NCBI RefSeq assembly: GCF_005116675.2 | Contig: NZ_CP050699.1 | Span: forward strand, 2,875,001 to 2,939,000 | Reading direction: 5' to 3' | Length of the DNA stretch: 64,000 nt | From: Desulfosediminicola ganghwensis | Lineage (GTDB): Bacteria; Desulfobacterota; Desulfobulbia; Desulfobulbales; Desulfocapsaceae | Shown here: positions 39,585 to 61,515 of the stretch, piece after piece | Numbering within the stretch: the first letter of the stretch is position 1 | How the letters are laid out: every line of letters begins with the position of its first letter | Position numbers and translations under genes: made by a program | The notes under the pieces: generated by a model | What the model saw: only the letters and a program-made list of their open reading frames with translations | Databases searched by the model: none | Told to the model about the DNA's origin: nothing

Positions 39585-40517
39585 ATGGCTCTGAAATCAA
39601 GTCTGGTAGTTGTCGCCAACGAGGCGTCAACAGTCCTGGGCCGAAAAGTCGCCGATATTCTCGGGGTGGAGTTTTCTGAGATGGTTCGGAAGACCTTCGC
39701 CGATGGAGAGTGCTATCACGCCTTCCCCAGTTCAATTGCGGGCAAGAACCTCATTATAGTGGGTGCGACCCACAGTGAAGCCGCGTATCAGGAACTGCTT
39801 GACCTCATCCAGGGGGGCAGATACTGGAATGCGGCTTCCATTAATGTGGTCATTCCCTATCTGGGCTATTCCACCATGGAGCGGGCCAGACCATTTTCCT
39901 TTGAAATCCCCAAAGGCATTACCCGTGCCCGCCAGATCTTTCAGGCAAGACCTGACTTTGTCGCTTTTGTCGACCTCCACTCTGAGGCGGTTCTCCATGC
40001 ACATGCAGGGGCGATTCGCACCCATCATATCTGGACCGACAGCCTGGTTGTTGAAAAGATCAGGCAATCCGATCTTACAGATTATGTACTTGTCTCACCT
40101 GATTACGGTTTTTCAAAGCGGGTCGCCAGATTGGCAAGCCTGCTCGATTGCCCACATACAGCCGCAGACAAAGATCGCTACGATACCGACAAAACCATAG
40201 TCAGCCAGGTATCGAGTGTTGTAAAAAACAGGACAGCCATCGTCTGCGATGATATGATTCGCACCGGTGGATCGATTGTACAGACAGCCTTAAGGTGTCT
40301 TGACGCCGGGGCGCGAGACGTTGTTGTCATGGCAACTCACCTGGTGCTTGCTGGCCAGGCAGAAGAGAAACTTGCAGCGAGCCCCATCCAGCGAATTATC
40401 GGTTCGGACAGTTACCCCGGCCGTACCAGCAACACCTTGCTGGATGTGTATTCAGTTGCCCCTTTGCTTGCAGATGTTATGCGAAAATATTTGCATTTAG
40501 ATAACGATTTGAAGTAG
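39585..40517 (+). CDS. Divergent ribose-phosphate pyrophosphokinase (class II-like PRPP synthase)
   Basis: A 310-residue protein with the PRPP-synthase fold: N-terminal KTFADGECYHAFPSS (F-DGE motif), VVIPYLGYSTMERARPFS (about 86-103), FVDLHSEAVLHAHAG (about 126-140) and the PRPP loop IVCDDMIRTGGSIVQTA (about 222-238). Canonical bacterial Prs has YARQDRK where this has YSTMERA, and a KRR catalytic loop where this has DKDRYDT. The TMER pattern recalls plant class II, phosphate-independent enzymes. It may make PRPP (needed by the his pathway) with altered control, or have another role. It lies 23 bp behind leuB with GGAGGGAGG before the ATG. Confidence 0.82.
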   Translation: MALKSSLVVVANEASTVLGRKVADILGVEFSEMVRKTFADGECYHAFPSSIAGKNLIIVGATHSEAAYQELLDLIQGGRYWNAASINVVIPYLGYSTMERARPFSFEIPKGITRARQIFQARPDFVAFVDLHSEAVLHAHAGAIRTHHIWTDSLVVEKIRQSDLTDYVLVSPDYGFSKRVARLASLLDCPHTAADKDRYDTDKTIVSQVSSVVKNRTAIVCDDMIRTGGSIVQTALRCLDAGARDVVVMATHLVLAGQAEEKLAASPIQRIIGSDSYPGRTSNTLLDVYSVAPLLADVMRKYLHLDNDLK

Positions 40518-40624: not shown

Positions 40625-43258
40625 ATGAAGAAGCAACTTATAGCAGAACATCTCCATCATTCTCTTATCTTTTCAGAGGTAGGTCGCTCCGATCTCGAAG
40701 CTTATGCGGATTGCTGCAGGGTTCAGATCGTGCAGGAGGGCGAGTATGTCTATCGCCAGGGGGATAGCAGTGAGTTGTTTTACGTGGTTGCCCAGGGCGA
40801 AGTTGAGCTGGTATTAGAACGTGAGGACGGAGACAGTCGGGTTGTAGGCCGTGTTGCACAGGGCGGCCATTTCGGTGAGACCAGTATGATTACCGGAAAG
40901 CCCCGATCCCTGAGCGTCAAAGCGCTTTTTGATCTGGTATTGATCTGTTTTGAGCGGAGGATTTTTCGTTCCGTGCTGCTGGTGAACCCGCTGGTGCACA
41001 AGAAATTTGATGAAGCCCTTGCCGAGAGACTGCGTGTGGCCTATCTGGATCAGGCCGATACAGCCAGCCACAATGATCCCCATGCAAAATCCAGCGCCGA
41101 TGATGTAATCCTGTTCAGGGAAAGAAATCTTTCGCAGATCAAGTTGCGCAGACTTGAAAAGAAAAAACAGTCGATTATCTACCACTCGAAGAGCGCCCGT
41201 CAGGCTCAGACTGTTATCAGTGCTTTTGCGGCCAATAACGAGCCGTACATCCTTACTGGAGAGTCCGGTACCGGAAAGAAAATCATTGCCCGCCAGATTC
41301 ATGCCGAGAGCAGTCGTTTTGAAGGCCCATATGTAGAGATAGACCTGCGGGAGCATGACCCGGTTTTGCTGGAGAAGAAGCTGTTCGGTACGAAGCAGGT
41401 AAACTCGCCGTTTGGCATGGCTCAGCAGTCTGGAATATTTGAACGTGGTTATGGTGGCACCATCGCCTTTCACGAAATTCGCCTGATGCCGCAGGATATC
41501 CAGGAGAAGGTGGTGGAGGCCATGGAGAGAAACACCTTCTCCCATGTTGATTCCGACGAGCCTATCGCCATGCAGTCGAGAGTTGTGTTCACTTCGACCC
41601 AGGATCTTGATCATCTTGAAAATACCGGCAAGATCATCCCGGAGTTGCTGCAGATATTCCAGCGTCAGCACTTCAGTGTGCCTGCATTACGGGAGCATAA
41701 ACGTGATCTGCCGCGACTGATTGAGCATTATCTCGGTCGGTACAGCAAAGAGTATGGGAAAAGTATCCTGAAGGTGTCCCCGGAAACTCTGGGTAATCTG
41801 ATGAACTATGACTGGCCTGGCAATCTCACCGAACTTTCCAGTGTGATAAGAAGGGCTGTGATGTTGGCCAAGGAAGAGGAACTGCTCTCGGATAATATCC
41901 TCCTGGGATTACCCAAGACTGAGGGGAAGTGGGAATTCAACCTGCTGCGGATTCCGTTTTTCAGGGCGTTTCTGACCTCCAAAAAATTCCCTACCTTGCC
42001 GCAGGGAGTGGTTGGTGTGGTAATTGCTGCCACCGTGCTGGCGCTTTTTCTCGGTTCCACTGAACCTGAAAAGAATGTCGGCCTCATCATGAGTTGGGCG
42101 ATCGGCTGGCCTCTGCTTTTCTTCTCTTTCTTTTTCCTGGCCAGAACATGGTGCAGTGTCTGTACTCTTGCTATGCCGGGTAAGCAACTGCAAAGCCTGA
42201 TAAAACCCAAAAAGAATACGCCCTATTTCATCAAAAATTATTCGGGCTGGATCATGGCGGTGCTCTGCATTCTGGTGCTTTGGGTTGAGATTGTCTGGAA
42301 CGCGTATCGCAACCCTGTCCTGACCGGTTGGATTATTCTGGCTGTAACCATTGGTTCCTGCGTCTGCAGTGTGCTCTTTTCACGCAGAACCTGGTGTCGT
42401 TATCTCTGCCCGCTGGGAGCGATTAACGCCATCTTTGCCATGCCGTCTATTCTGGAGCTTCGCTCCAACAGGCATGTCTGCCTTAACCGCTGTACAGAGC
42501 ACAATTGCTTTGGTGGCGGGGAGGTTCAAGGTGGTTGCCCTATGTTCAGGCATCCATACCTTGTTGATAATAACAGGGACTGTATATTCTGTGGCGACTG
42601 TGTGAAAAACTGCCGTAACAGTTCCATTCATCTGAATCTCCGACTGGCACCGCAGGAGCTTTGGTCACTGCAGACTCCGAGAAGGGCTGATTCGTTTCTG
42701 ATCGTTGCGCTCGGGGCAATTTTTTTCCCTTTCGCTCTGCATAGCGAGTTCTCAACGCTGGTCCTGTGGTTGAACGGAATGCTGGCAAACTATAACATCT
42801 GGCTGCCCAATGCACTAACCGGTTCCGTTATATTCTTCCTGGGAATTCTGATATTTCAGATTGGCTATTACCTGATGGTACAGGTCCAGTCATGGAAGGG
42901 CGGAATGGATAGGGAGTTTCTCCTGCCAATGCTTGGTTATGGCTTTATTCCGCTCATTCTGGGTGGATATATGGCGGTGCATTTCGAGGTTTTTGTCAGT
43001 GAGGCAGGAAGTATATTACCGGCGATAAAGCATGCATTTGGTCAGGAGGCGGTATTTGACCACTCCAGACTGCTCAGCCCTGACAGTACCTTTGTATTGC
43101 AGATATTTACTGTGGTTGGCGGATTGCTGGCATCGATGTATGCCACTTACCGTATAATCGCCAGAGGAGTGAACGATGTAATTGTGGATTCAGCTGTTCT
43201 GGCGATTCCCTTTAGCTTCCTGATTACTCTGGCCGTTTTGTTTGTGGTGATGATCTGA
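40625..43258 (+). CDS. Fusion of cyclic-nucleotide domain, degenerate sigma54-type AAA+ and membrane polyferredoxin
   Basis: An 877-residue three-part protein. Residues about 11-125 form a cNMP-binding domain (GEYVYRQGDSSELFYVVAQG, GGHFGETSMI). Residues about 183-430 are a sigma54-activator-like AAA+ domain with intact Walker A (GESGTGKK, 212-219), but the GAFTGA loop is replaced by NSPFGMA (about 260) and Walker B reads GGTIAFHEI in place of GGTLFLDEI. Residues 459-877 hold about nine membrane helices and NosR/NapH-like iron-sulfur cysteines: C510/C513, WCRYLCP (591-596), C619/C623/C628/C638, and CIFCGDCVKNC (653-663). There is no DNA-binding helix. It looks like a nucleotide-gated membrane electron-transfer protein. 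Start context is weak; its upstream gene is the PRPP synthase. Confidence 0.88.
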   Translation: MKKQLIAEHLHHSLIFSEVGRSDLEAYADCCRVQIVQEGEYVYRQGDSSELFYVVAQGEVELVLEREDGDSRVVGRVAQGGHFGETSMITGKPRSLSVKALFDLVLICFERRIFRSVLLVNPLVHKKFDEALAERLRVAYLDQADTASHNDPHAKSSADDVILFRERNLSQIKLRRLEKKKQSIIYHSKSARQAQTVISAFAANNEPYILTGESGTGKKIIARQIHAESSRFEGPYVEIDLREHDPVLLEKKLFGTKQVNSPFGMAQQSGIFERGYGGTIAFHEIRLMPQDIQEKVVEAMERNTFSHVDSDEPIAMQSRVVFTSTQDLDHLENTGKIIPELLQIFQRQHFSVPALREHKRDLPRLIEHYLGRYSKEYGKSILKVSPETLGNLMNYDWPGNLTELSSVIRRAVMLAKEEELLSDNILLGLPKTEGKWEFNLLRIPFFRAFLTSKKFPTLPQGVVGVVIAATVLALFLGSTEPEKNVGLIMSWAIGWPLLFFSFFFLARTWCSVCTLAMPGKQLQSLIKPKKNTPYFIKNYSGWIMAVLCILVLWVEIVWNAYRNPVLTGWIILAVTIGSCVCSVLFSRRTWCRYLCPLGAINAIFAMPSILELRSNRHVCLNRCTEHNCFGGGEVQGGCPMFRHPYLVDNNRDCIFCGDCVKNCRNSSIHLNLRLAPQELWSLQTPRRADSFLIVALGAIFFPFALHSEFSTLVLWLNGMLANYNIWLPNALTGSVIFFLGILIFQIGYYLMVQVQSWKGGMDREFLLPMLGYGFIPLILGGYMAVHFEVFVSEAGSILPAIKHAFGQEAVFDHSRLLSPDSTFVLQIFTVVGGLLASMYATYRIIARGVNDVIVDSAVLAIPFSFLITLAVLFVVMI

Positions 43259-43265
43259 TAATGGA

Positions 43266-44168
43266 TCAGGCTTTATCCAGATAATTGTTGATTGCCTCGG
43301 TGGCCCGCATTTCTTTGAGCCAGTTTTGTTCAAGCCCGTCAAGTCCCTGGTATGCTCCAAGAATCATACCGACTATCATGCCCCGGGCTGCTGAGTCTCC
43401 CCCCGCCATGACGTTTTGTACCAGAGCTTCCTGCAAGTTGTCCTGGTAGGCGCAGATGAGGTGAACAGCTCCGGGCAGGGCTGCGCTGGTACTGCACATC
43501 TGGCCGAAACGGGTAATAACTTCGCGACTGTCATCGGCTACGGTTTCCAGACTGCTCCGTACCCGCATATCGAGATCGATATCTGCAAGACCATCATCAA
43601 CCAGGGTCTCAATTGCCTGTTGCGGAGCAATTCCACCGAGCACTTTCAGTGAAGCGTGGACTATAAAATCAGTCGTTGCCGCAATTCCGGCTCCCTTGTG
43701 GGTGAGACGGGTCTGTTGTCGGGCGAATTTCATAAGCAGTTCCGGATCATGTTTGTACCAATGAATCAGGGGAGCTATGCGTGCCGGTCCGCCGAGATCG
43801 CTTGAGTTTGAGCCGCAATCTTCGGCTGAAGCACCACACTCCAACGCTTCAAGCGTTTTCCTGGTTGCACTGTCCCGATAACCTGAATAGCTGTTGCTGA
43901 ATTGCTGCCACGCATTGGCAAAAGTATGGAGGTCAAAGCCACCGTTTTCGGCGAGATGACGAAGAAGTAGCAGGGCTTGGTCACCATAGTGAGTGAAGTC
44001 ACCTTTTTCTTTGGAGGAATGGAACGAATTCGGGACTGGTGGTCGGAGTTGATCGACTATACCGAGCTCGGTCTCTATTTTGCTGGTGTCATAAATCCAG
44101 TGAGCGCCGAGAGCGAGTGAATCGGCGGCAAAGGAAGCGAGAACCATGGCCTTACTATTCGTTTTCAT
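43266..44168 (-). CDS. ADP-ribosylglycohydrolase family protein
   Basis: A 300-residue protein of the DraG/ARH family, which removes ADP-ribose from proteins or small molecules with two Mg2+ ions. Visible are ASFAADSLALGAHWIYD (about residues 11-27; the family's first helix), GDFTHYGDQALLLLRHL (metal-site region, about 56-72), and the late metal motif MAGGDSAARGMIVGMILGA (about 255-273), where the usual GDT is GDS. No partner ADP-ribosyltransferase is adjacent, so it is not an obvious nitrogenase-control DraG. It converges on the fusion gene with 7 bp between stops. Confidence 0.88.
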   Translation of the reverse strand: MKTNSKAMVLASFAADSLALGAHWIYDTSKIETELGIVDQLRPPVPNSFHSSKEKGDFTHYGDQALLLLRHLAENGGFDLHTFANAWQQFSNSYSGYRDSATRKTLEALECGASAEDCGSNSSDLGGPARIAPLIHWYKHDPELLMKFARQQTRLTHKGAGIAATTDFIVHASLKVLGGIAPQQAIETLVDDGLADIDLDMRVRSSLETVADDSREVITRFGQMCSTSAALPGAVHLICAYQDNLQEALVQNVMAGGDSAARGMIVGMILGAYQGLDGLEQNWLKEMRATEAINNYLDKA

Positions 44169-60156: not shown

Positions 60157-61515
60157 GTGGCAAATAGACAGATGACAGTTCTGGTTGTGGATGACGAACA
60201 GGTTCACCGTTACATGTTGAGCTCCATGCTGAAAGAGTGGGGGTGGAGGTGTGTTGAGGCGGATGACGGGACCACTGCCGTGGCGGCAGTTGAGCAGAAC
60301 AGTTATGACGCGGTGCTGATGGATATCCGGATGTTGAAAATGGATGGGCGCGAGGCTTTTCGGCGTATTCGCGAGATTCAGCCAGCCTTGCCGGTTGTCT
60401 TGATGACCGCCTATTCTTCTGTAGATGATGCGGTCTTGATGATTCAGGAGGGGGCCCACGATTACCTGACAAAGCCCCTTGATTTCGACCGGCTCAGGCT
60501 GGCGCTGGAACGGGCTGTGGATCATCGCCAGGTTACAGAAAAAAGGCAGCAGGCACCCAAGGAGAGGCGGGAGGTTGAAACAGCTATTATAGGTGAGTCA
60601 CCGAAGATGCTTGAACTTCTCGAGATGATCTCTTATGTGGCGCCAACGGAAGCTACGGTGCTCATTTACGGAGAATCAGGGACAGGTAAGGAACTGGTGG
60701 CCGAGGCGCTGCATATCAATAGTGAACGTCGTGATGGACCGTTTATTAAAGTGAACTGTGCCGCGCTCGCCGAAAGTCTCTTGGAATCGGAGCTGTTTGG
60801 CCATGAAAAGGGCGCATTTACCGGTGCTGACCGGCAGCGGGACGGTAAGTTTGTCCAGGCGGATGGTGGAACCCTTTTTCTGGATGAGATCGGGGAAACT
60901 TCCCAGGCCATGCAGGTAAAGCTGCTGCGTGTGTTGCAGGAGCAGGAGCTGCAGCGGGTGGGCGGTGAGGTGACGGTCAAGGTTGATGTGCGAATTATTG
61001 CTGCCACTAACCGCGATCTGGAAGAAGAGGTCAGAAAAGGAAATTTCAGGGAAGATCTCTACTATCGGCTCAACGTGGTGATGCTGACTTCACCGGCACT
61101 CCGTGAACGCGACGGGGATATCCCGCTTTTAGTGAATCATTTTGTAGAGAAATTTGCTGCCAAAAACAGAAGAACAGTCTCCCGCGTTATTCCGGCATGT
61201 ATGGATCTGCTCTGCGGCTATCCCTGGCCCGGCAATGTCCGGGAGCTGGAAAATGCAATAGAACGCGGGGTAATCCTGATGCGGGGCGAAGAGCTGACTG
61301 AAAAGAGTCTGCCTTTGTCTGTCCAGAGATTTCACCAGCAGCAAAAGGAAACCACTGTAGCCAAGCAGCCTGCGTCACTCTTTGAGGCAGAGAAAAAACT
61401 TATTCTTGAAACGCTCGAAAAGACAGAAGGAAACAAAAGTGAAGCGGCGCGCAGACTGGGGATTACCCGGAAGACTCTGCAGAATAAGTTGAACAAGTAT
61501 GAAAGTGAGGGGTGA
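60157..61515 (+). CDS. Sigma54-dependent response regulator (NtrC family)
   Basis: A 452-residue transcription activator. The receiver domain (about 6-120) has the acidic pocket VVDDEQ, the phospho-Asp in VLMDIRM (about residue 54), and the conserved Thr and Lys in LMTAYSS and LTKPLDF. The AAA+ domain has Walker A YGESGTGKELVAEAL (about 168-182), the sigma54 loop ELFGHEKGAFTGAD (about 210-223) and Walker B GGTLFLDEIGE. A Fis-type helix-turn-helix ends the chain (NKSEAARRLGITRKTLQNKL). The GTG start has AAGGGA 6 nt upstream. No histidine kinase is adjacent, so its signal is unknown. Confidence 0.93.
   Translation: MANRQMTVLVVDDEQVHRYMLSSMLKEWGWRCVEADDGTTAVAAVEQNSYDAVLMDIRMLKMDGREAFRRIREIQPALPVVLMTAYSSVDDAVLMIQEGAHDYLTKPLDFDRLRLALERAVDHRQVTEKRQQAPKERREVETAIIGESPKMLELLEMISYVAPTEATVLIYGESGTGKELVAEALHINSERRDGPFIKVNCAALAESLLESELFGHEKGAFTGADRQRDGKFVQADGGTLFLDEIGETSQAMQVKLLRVLQEQELQRVGGEVTVKVDVRIIAATNRDLEEEVRKGNFREDLYYRLNVVMLTSPALRERDGDIPLLVNHFVEKFAAKNRRTVSRVIPACMDLLCGYPWPGNVRELENAIERGVILMRGEELTEKSLPLSVQRFHQQQKETTVAKQPASLFEAEKKLILETLEKTEGNKSEAARRLGITRKTLQNKLNKYESEG

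Follow-up and report, generated by a model that had tools for sequence, protein, structure and literature searches.

The transcription activators that work with sigma54 (bacterial enhancer-binding proteins, bEBPs, such as NtrC, PspF and FleQ) carry an AAA+ fold and lid, which in single-component bEBPs follow an N-terminal regulatory domain, and they have a helix-turn-helix DNA-binding domain. Activators without the GAFTGA motif are known, among them Caulobacter NtrC, described as a DNA-binding regulator (PMC10274813), and a survey of Desulfovibrio vulgaris treated 37 activators by the form of their GAFTGA in a main text which contains neither "4Fe-4S" nor "cyclic nucleotide" (PMC4641369). Membrane proteins of the NapH type are described as quinol-oxidising electron conduits (PMC5928378, PMC8238504), in which, as in NosR, the CX3CP and two 4Fe-4S motifs act in quinol-linked electron transfer and mutants in the first motif lose function (PMC5928378). 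RdhC/PceC and other NapH-like flavinylated conduits likewise have a polyferredoxin-type membrane module with swapped redox partners (PMC5928378, PMC8238504). Here we describe a gene of Desulfosediminicola ganghwensis which joins a cyclic nucleotide monophosphate (cNMP)-binding domain, a sigma54-activator-type AAA+ domain and a membrane polyferredoxin module in one chain. The gene lies in a 64,000-nucleotide stretch (the window; NZ_CP050699.1, positions 2,875,001 to 2,939,000) of a genome assembled as one contig of 5,653,142 bases.

The original prediction, made from the DNA letters alone, had proposed a single 877-residue chain with these three parts and nine membrane helices, and the open reading frame, the Pfam matches and the structure model all agree with it. 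The cNMP_binding family (PF00027) matched residues 36-118 at 65.6 bits (cut-off 27.5), Sigma54_activat (PF00158) residues 184-342 at 97 bits (cut-off 20.2) and AAA_lid_14 (PF25601) residues 356-424 at 63.8 bits (cut-off 27). Two stretches matched Fer4_5 at 21.6 bits, slightly below the cut-off of 22, and residues 649-665 matched Fer4 at 14.1 bits, below the cut-off of 21.1. The top NCBIfam matches, among the 25 of 40 listed, were sigma54 activators, all of them below their cut-offs. There was no DNA-binding or helix-turn-helix domain among the 9 Pfam families listed, and the C-terminal half is made of membrane helices, in agreement with the earlier statement that no DNA-binding domain remains. 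The features of the gene are as follows, with invariance counted over an alignment of 55 members.

40625 to 43258, forward strand: gene for the sensor, degenerate AAA+ and membrane polyferredoxin protein, from ATG at 40625 to the stop at 43258, 877 residues, no internal stop.
40730 to 40978, forward strand: cNMP-binding domain, residues 36-118 (Pfam PF00027, column counts).
41174 to 41896, forward strand: AAA+ domain of the sigma54-activator type (residues 184-342) with its lid (356-424), degenerate in its catalytic residues (Pfam, Foldseek, residue count).
41258 to 41281, forward strand: Walker A, GESGTGKK, residues 212-219.
41399 to 41416, forward strand: VNSPFG at the GAFTGA position, residues 259-264 (alignment with 34 control activators).
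41471 to 41476, forward strand: HE at the Walker B DE position, residues 283-284 (alignment).
41933 to 43255, forward strand: membrane polyferredoxin module, residues 437-877, nine predicted helices (structure models, lysine plus arginine counts, profile A2).
42152 to 42163, forward strand: CX2C motif, C510-C513, invariant in 55/55 (CX3CP in NapH/NosR).
42395 to 42412, forward strand: CX3CP motif, C591-P596, both cysteines invariant in 55/55.
42479 to 42541, forward strand: unusual CX3CX4CX9CP motif, C619-P639, possible first iron-sulfur site, cysteines invariant in 55/55.
42581 to 42613, forward strand: CX2CX2CX3C ferredoxin-type [4Fe-4S] motif, C653-C663, invariant in 55/55 (Pfam Fer4 below cut-off).

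The AAA+ domain was compared between 81 members (the 55 aligned members and 26 proteins from a profile search of the organism's own phylum) and 34 ordinary activators from the search of named genomes (L077-L110), leaving out L144, whose AAA+ region is cut off, and 13 loci which have none (L146, L149-L160). Eight residues with catalytic roles were scored, namely the Walker A lysine, the GAFTGA threonine, the Walker B aspartate and glutamate, the sensor I asparagine, two arginine fingers and the sensor II arginine. None of the eight was kept by 22 members, one by 46, two by 12 and three by a single member, whereas the control activators kept five (3), seven (6) or all eight (25), and an unusual but active activator was ruled out by this test. 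Nine further members, mostly from other phyla, kept none (4) or one (5), although in one of them (L175) the sequence is cut and two of the eight positions are missing. Both Walker B acids were present together in 0/90 members (0/81 and 0/9). We also looked for homologues which had kept GAFTGA, and found its key threonine in 34/34 controls and 0/81 members. A finger arginine of any kind was left in 2/81 members, compared with 31/34 and 34/34 controls.

The D. ganghwensis protein itself keeps two of the eight residues, K218 and E284, with isoleucine at both arginine fingers and threonine at the sensor II position; E284 is unique to it among the 55 members, the position being histidine in 32 and asparagine in 17. 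Walker A and the HE replacement at Walker B had been correctly identified by the original prediction, and the GAFTGA loop is degenerate as stated there, although the aligned residues are VNSPFG (V259-G264) and not NSPFGMA. The nearest approaches to GAFTGA were GTFATA in L131 and GAFADA in L179, neither with the Walker B acid pair, and by their motifs these two show that the presumed ancestor was near a real activator. The fold has been retained, since the AAA+ model gave a target-normalised Foldseek TM-score of 0.90 to NtrC1 (1ny6), and WPGN is nearly universal (W in 78, P in 80, G in 79 and N in 81 of 81 members). On these residue patterns the AAA+ domain is a putative pseudo-ATPase wherever examined.

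The protein thus shares with bEBPs the AAA+ fold with lid, a largely kept P-loop and, in the manner of single-component bEBPs, an N-terminal domain ahead of the AAA+ domain, but it differs in lacking GAFTGA, the Walker B acid pair, the arginine fingers, the sensor II arginine and the DNA-binding domain, and it has a membrane module where bEBPs have the helix-turn-helix. The missing GAFTGA, Walker B acids, arginine fingers and DNA-binding domain support the earlier suggestion that the ability to activate transcription was probably lost. Such a protein is easily misread as a transcription activator because it scores above the Pfam cut-off for the sigma54-interaction domain.

In the membrane module, 12 cysteines (510, 513, 591, 595, 619, 623, 628, 638, 653, 656, 659 and 663) were invariant in 55/55 members and C548 was kept in 54/55. 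The original prediction had recognised a polyferredoxin-like arrangement but had put the number at about ten. The 12-cysteine pattern derived from the family matched 77/80 modules of all architectures (exceptions L160, L181 and L182). By our reading of the models, four helices precede the cysteine domain and five follow it, and the module model reached a predicted template modelling score (pTM) of 0.81. The two loops which bear the cysteines contain 6 and 12 lysines plus arginines, the short loops between helices 1 and 2 and between helices 3 and 4 contain 1 each, and on these counts the cysteines are predicted to lie on the cytoplasmic side; the loops of helices 5-9, with counts of 0-1 each, do not discriminate between topologies.

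Like NapH/MauN and NosR/NirI, the module is a set of membrane helices bearing two cysteine-pair motifs ahead of cysteines of the ferredoxin type, and it gave weak matches to their models. These were far below the family cut-offs (38.8 bits against 213.05 for NapH/MauN, TIGR02163; 19.1 bits against 1000 for NosR, NF046105). The first cysteine pair is CX2C and the second CX3CP, where NapH/NosR have two CX3CP, and the ferredoxin sites comprise one standard motif and the unusual CX3CX4CX9CP at the first site, compared with the two [4Fe-4S] motifs of NapH/NosR. In addition, five predicted helices follow the cysteine domain and cytoplasmic signalling domains stand in front. NosR has an N-terminal periplasmic flavin mononucleotide (FMN)-binding domain, whereas for our protein neither the 9 Pfam families nor the listed NCBIfam matches (25 of 40) include an FMN-binding family. 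The proposed likeness to NosR/NapH therefore stands as a distant one and membership does not; we do not claim it, given the differences in the first motif and at the first ferredoxin site. RdhC/PceC-type surveys concern extracytosolic FMN partners, and neither "cyclic nucleotide" nor "regulatory" occurs in the main text of PMC8238504. Judged from its sequence, the protein is related to bEBPs and to NapH/NosR but lies outside both. The original prediction knew of no studied protein with this order, and we found no published description of a sensor, dead AAA+ and polyferredoxin architecture in a search whose coverage mostly excluded subscription journals and preprint servers.

A co-linear copy of the window's type was present in 17/38 genomes (the host counted, and two of the 17 copies cut by contig ends). 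All 17 fell within 25 genomes of the same family, and two other genomes (G032, G033) hold more distant copies. In named genomes, 46 of 80 loci kept for study (L031-L076) were co-linear relatives with 41-81% identity, including two truncated at contig ends (L049, L050) and two whose frames are broken (L067, L074), while the remaining 34 matched the AAA+ region alone or barely more. The window's type accounts for 25 of the 46 (49-81% identity; other loci 41-47%). The nearest named relative, with 81% identity, is from Desulfosediminicola flagellatus, which carries two types of the gene (L031, L053) where the host genome carries one copy; the protein of L075 is 1197 residues long owing to a long insertion between the cNMP and AAA+ domains. 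The identical order in 17/38 genomes and 46 named-record loci rules out two genes joined by a sequencing error, an artefact which would have undone the original prediction. The 55-member alignment omits L067 and L074 for their broken frames and L031-L033, L041, L043 and L047-L049 as the same genes entered as whole-genome loci, and near-copies such as L056 and L059 were each counted. Of the two alignments used for folding, one was made without L059, L067 and L074 and the other without L040, L050, L059, L065, L067, L073 and L074.

Ratios of nonsynonymous to synonymous differences (pN/pS) to the nearest relative were 0.157 for the cNMP domain, 0.162 for the AAA+ domain and 0.214 for the membrane part, and to two other relatives 0.23-0.24, 0.219 and 0.261, and 0.23-0.26, respectively, values which give the order of magnitude only because synonymous sites are saturated. 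All domains look to be under purifying selection, the degenerate AAA+ domain apparently as constrained as its neighbours. As the Walker B acid pair is absent from all 90 members and the AAA+ pN/pS is nevertheless low, the domain probably does useful non-catalytic work.

The membrane module was followed beyond these relatives with a profile (A2), which matched 61/395 genomes of the own phylum at E <=1e-30, in 71 places. We fetched 40 of these, long open frames first; the other 31 were the host copy and places with open frames of 453-498 residues, suggestive of stand-alone modules. An AAA+ region was present in 26 of the 40 fetched loci (some cut at contig ends), and L144 is cut before the AAA+ region. 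The front end varied. Besides the plain cNMP sensor, FHA and cNMP sensors occur together in L143 (Pfam) and L145 (by eye), long cNMP forms with GAF-like inserts in L122 and L124 (by eye), cNMP with GAF in L179 and GAF without cNMP in L183 (both Pfam). In other proteins a cytochrome c domain (L146, Pfam) or a YHS/TRASH-type metal domain (L149, PF04945, 57.5 bits; L150 and L151 by eye) is joined to the module, and stand-alone modules also occur. A sample centred on Thermodesulfovibrionales gave matches in 6/148 genomes, four of which have AAA+ fusions (L177-L180), and one centred on Bryobacteraceae in 16/199, where one of four loci read (L171) is FHA-cNMP-AAA+ (FHA and cNMP by eye). In the phylum of the L075 genome 4/4 genomes matched, all with the AAA+ region. 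An alphaproteobacterium-centred sample matched in 28/398 genomes, and the four loci read there lacked WPGN and carried CxxCH motifs (cytochrome c type), a single one in L188; in L186, L187 and L189, from the phylum of that centre, the module lies behind three such motifs each.

A tree was made from 79/80 modules (L160 was left out as short), using 20 of the 55 aligned members. A supported branch (64 rows, 100/96) parts the AAA+ fusions from modules with cytochrome, YHS or other front ends. Six stand-alone modules (L020-L025) nest among the fusions, a position suggesting that their front end was lost and that the module can outlive the sensor and AAA+ domain. These 12-cysteine stand-alone modules mostly adjoin genes for MgtE-like, HtrA-like protease and CorC/CBS-like proteins (by eye), and a redox link to magnesium or envelope stress is possible for them.

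As in the CRP/PKA-type domains which match PF00027, the cNMP domain contains the phosphate-binding cassette residues G84-E85 and R94-S95, although no DNA-binding domain stands behind it. E85, R94 and S95, which we take to match phosphate-binding residues of CRP, are also present in three relatives of the genus, and the host genome has two class III cyclase matches. Across the 55 members, however, the R94 column holds R in 23, H in 14, N in 11, Q in 6 and D in 1. Cyclic-nucleotide binding is thus plausible from these residues in this lineage and appears unlikely as a family-wide property. Since R94 is arginine in only 23/55 and elsewhere FHA or GAF domains are present or the cNMP domain is missing, nucleotide sensing, as originally predicted, may hold here and would not be the general job of the family.

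Our preferred reading, held tentatively and at somewhat short of an even chance, is that the protein is a membrane-anchored transducer from signal to redox, with a varying sensor, a non-catalytic AAA+ relay and a constant redox module. The N-terminal cytoplasmic cNMP-type domain would receive the signal, possibly a cyclic nucleotide in this lineage, and the AAA+ domain, without ATP hydrolysis or contact with sigma54, would serve as a folded and possibly oligomeric transmitter of the sensor state to the membrane. The 12 cytoplasm-facing cysteines would provide probably two [4Fe-4S] clusters and a CX2C/CX3CP thiol or metal site, and the nine-helix module would pass electrons between a donor in the membrane (probably menaquinol) and a partner, with the sensor gating this traffic. 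We infer in this scheme the ATPase loss, cluster content, quinone contact, electron direction, gating and ligand identity; control of electron flow, as already suggested in the original prediction and in keeping with a domain order that would suit a sensor working on a membrane redox unit, is the best inference. The scheme is supported by the swapping of sensors while the AAA+ and polyferredoxin parts stay paired, the varying part of signalling proteins usually being the input. It is supported also by the low AAA+ pN/pS despite the missing Walker B acid pair, the invariant cysteines, the stand-alone modules nested among the fusions, the quinol-oxidising role described for NapH-type proteins, the fusion of the membrane module elsewhere to redox or metal partners (cytochrome c, YHS) and the position of some loci beside signalling genes (by eye): a histidine-kinase-like gene and then an NtrC-type gene precede L125 and L126, and Ser/Thr-kinase-like genes lie beside L143, L134 and L148.

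Several points weigh against this transducer reading, in addition to the saturation which blunts the pN/pS comparison. No solved structure resembled the membrane module (best Foldseek E 0.11), and a sequence profile search for a solved homologue gave short ferredoxin-type or doubtful matches only. The cysteine loops were modelled poorly (predicted local distance difference test, pLDDT, <50 at residues 616-626 and 647-652), and, as no structure matched either, any geometry proposed for the iron-sulfur clusters is tentative. The Walker A lysine is replaced by arginine in 28/55 members, and transmission driven by a nucleotide may therefore be confined to part of the family. The tree is rooted at its midpoint and has several long branches, among them that of the six nested modules (1.91), and the joining of L147 with L148 may be false. 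Given this root and branch length, and since the plain cNMP-AAA+ label has to change 5 times on the tree, a single fusion event is no more than one possibility. The neighbouring genes do not name a reductase or dehydrogenase partner.

The gene neighbourhood is constant in the window's subfamily only in part, as set out below.

39585 to 40517, forward strand: gene of the phosphoribosyl pyrophosphate (PRPP) synthetase family (TIGR01251), 107 bases upstream of the start codon.

This gene matched TIGR01251 at 174.1 bits (cut-off 113) and is 26% identical to the other of the two copies in the host genome. It lies upstream on the same strand in 22/23 subfamily loci with room to show it (exception L044; L034 and L049 had no room), where the surroundings also include hisD-, rsmG- and leuB-like genes (by eye); the searched loci of members outside the subfamily gave no match to it. 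In the other named-record co-linear loci no neighbour was common to at least four loci, although an activator-like gene recurs in L061, L066 and L071 (by eye) and a response-regulator-like gene in three loci. A partner was sought in the neighbourhoods of the named and 30 further loci, and only the PRPP-synthetase-family gene and the row of genes preceding it were steady, in this subfamily alone. A promoter scan around the gene found one sigma70-like site on the forward strand, inside the upstream gene, and five sites overall compared with 3.9 in shuffles. Downstream, an ADP-ribosylglycohydrolase-like gene (43266-44168, reverse strand) matched the DraG model at 52.2 bits, below its cut-off of 337.05, and a match to it was found near the member gene in 8 other loci. 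The members at L061 and L071 directly follow universal-stress-protein-like genes (by eye).

The main rival, which we consider unlikely, is that the protein is a redox-controlled decoy, whose polyferredoxin would sense the quinone or thiol state and whose AAA+ domain would co-assemble with genuine sigma54 activators and block or sequester them at the membrane, the output being transcription. Paralogous activators are reported to interact with one another (PMC9542535), which would favour such co-assembly, as would the well-kept AAA+ fold and the nearly invariant WPGN. Candidate partners are at hand, since the host genome has 53 PF00158 matches of at least 150 bits, all stronger than that of our protein, and the NtrC-type gene at L125 and L126, with its activator motifs intact, shares the strand of the member gene and is some 100 bases upstream of it. 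However, the finger arginines, which in active AAA+ rings form the contacts between subunits, are left in only 2/81 members, and the swapping of sensors points to the polyferredoxin as the output. A motif scan, which recovers 26/34 known activators, found intact activators in the flanks of 0/25 subfamily, 2/21 other named-record and 2/30 further loci, where the activator density of the host genome would predict about 2.8, 2.1 and 2.0, and the nearest strong activator in the window (about 60586-61086, forward strand; an ordinary sigma54 AAA+ match of 253.2 bits) is about 17 kb away. Neighbouring activators are thus no commoner than chance and were rejected as partners, and for this reason we weigh the decoy slightly lower.

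A maturation or assembly factor seems a little less likely still. Here a chaperone-like AAA+ adaptor would be combined with a polyferredoxin supplying electrons to build or repair the metal centre of another enzyme, in the way that NosR supports NosZ; NosR is described as taking part in enzyme activation as well as electron transfer (PMC5928378), and a related module carries YHS (L149), but no conserved enzyme gene stood beside the member gene in the loci examined and a dead ATPase could not power assembly alone. It is improbable that, in this subfamily alone, the protein senses the adenine-nucleotide or PRPP economy jointly with the product of the upstream PRPP-synthetase-family gene, in which case the membrane part would mainly be an anchor and redox input. 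The near-constant position of that gene, its divergence from the other copy, the retention of R94 in four members of the genus and the two cyclase matches would agree with this, whereas the gene order is conserved over a longer, housekeeping-like stretch, so the linkage may be passive, and the neighbour is missing at L044 and from the searched loci of other members. That the gene is a decaying fusion without function, as loss of the AAA+ catalytic motifs might suggest, is hardly credible in view of the 12 invariant cysteines, the occurrence across families and several phyla and the low pN/pS in every domain, by which a functionless relic was ruled out.

If the transducer reading is true, the protein would be a clear example of an AAA+ motor which has become nothing but a signalling relay, and second-messenger signals would act on respiratory electron transfer directly, with no transcription in between. 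The degenerate AAA+ motifs offer a simple way to separate these proteins from transcription activators, and the size of the family (26 fused among 40 fetched of 71 own-phylum places, and three further phyla) allows comparative and genetic tests. Possibly, although we hold this with slightly less confidence than the transducer itself, the proteins form a widespread class in which a former activator AAA+ domain, having given up ATPase activity, contact with sigma54 and DNA binding, acts as a non-catalytic transmitter between swappable cNMP, FHA or GAF sensors and a polyferredoxin, so that in sulfate reducers and other anaerobes electron flow may be throttled directly by second messengers or phosphorylation.

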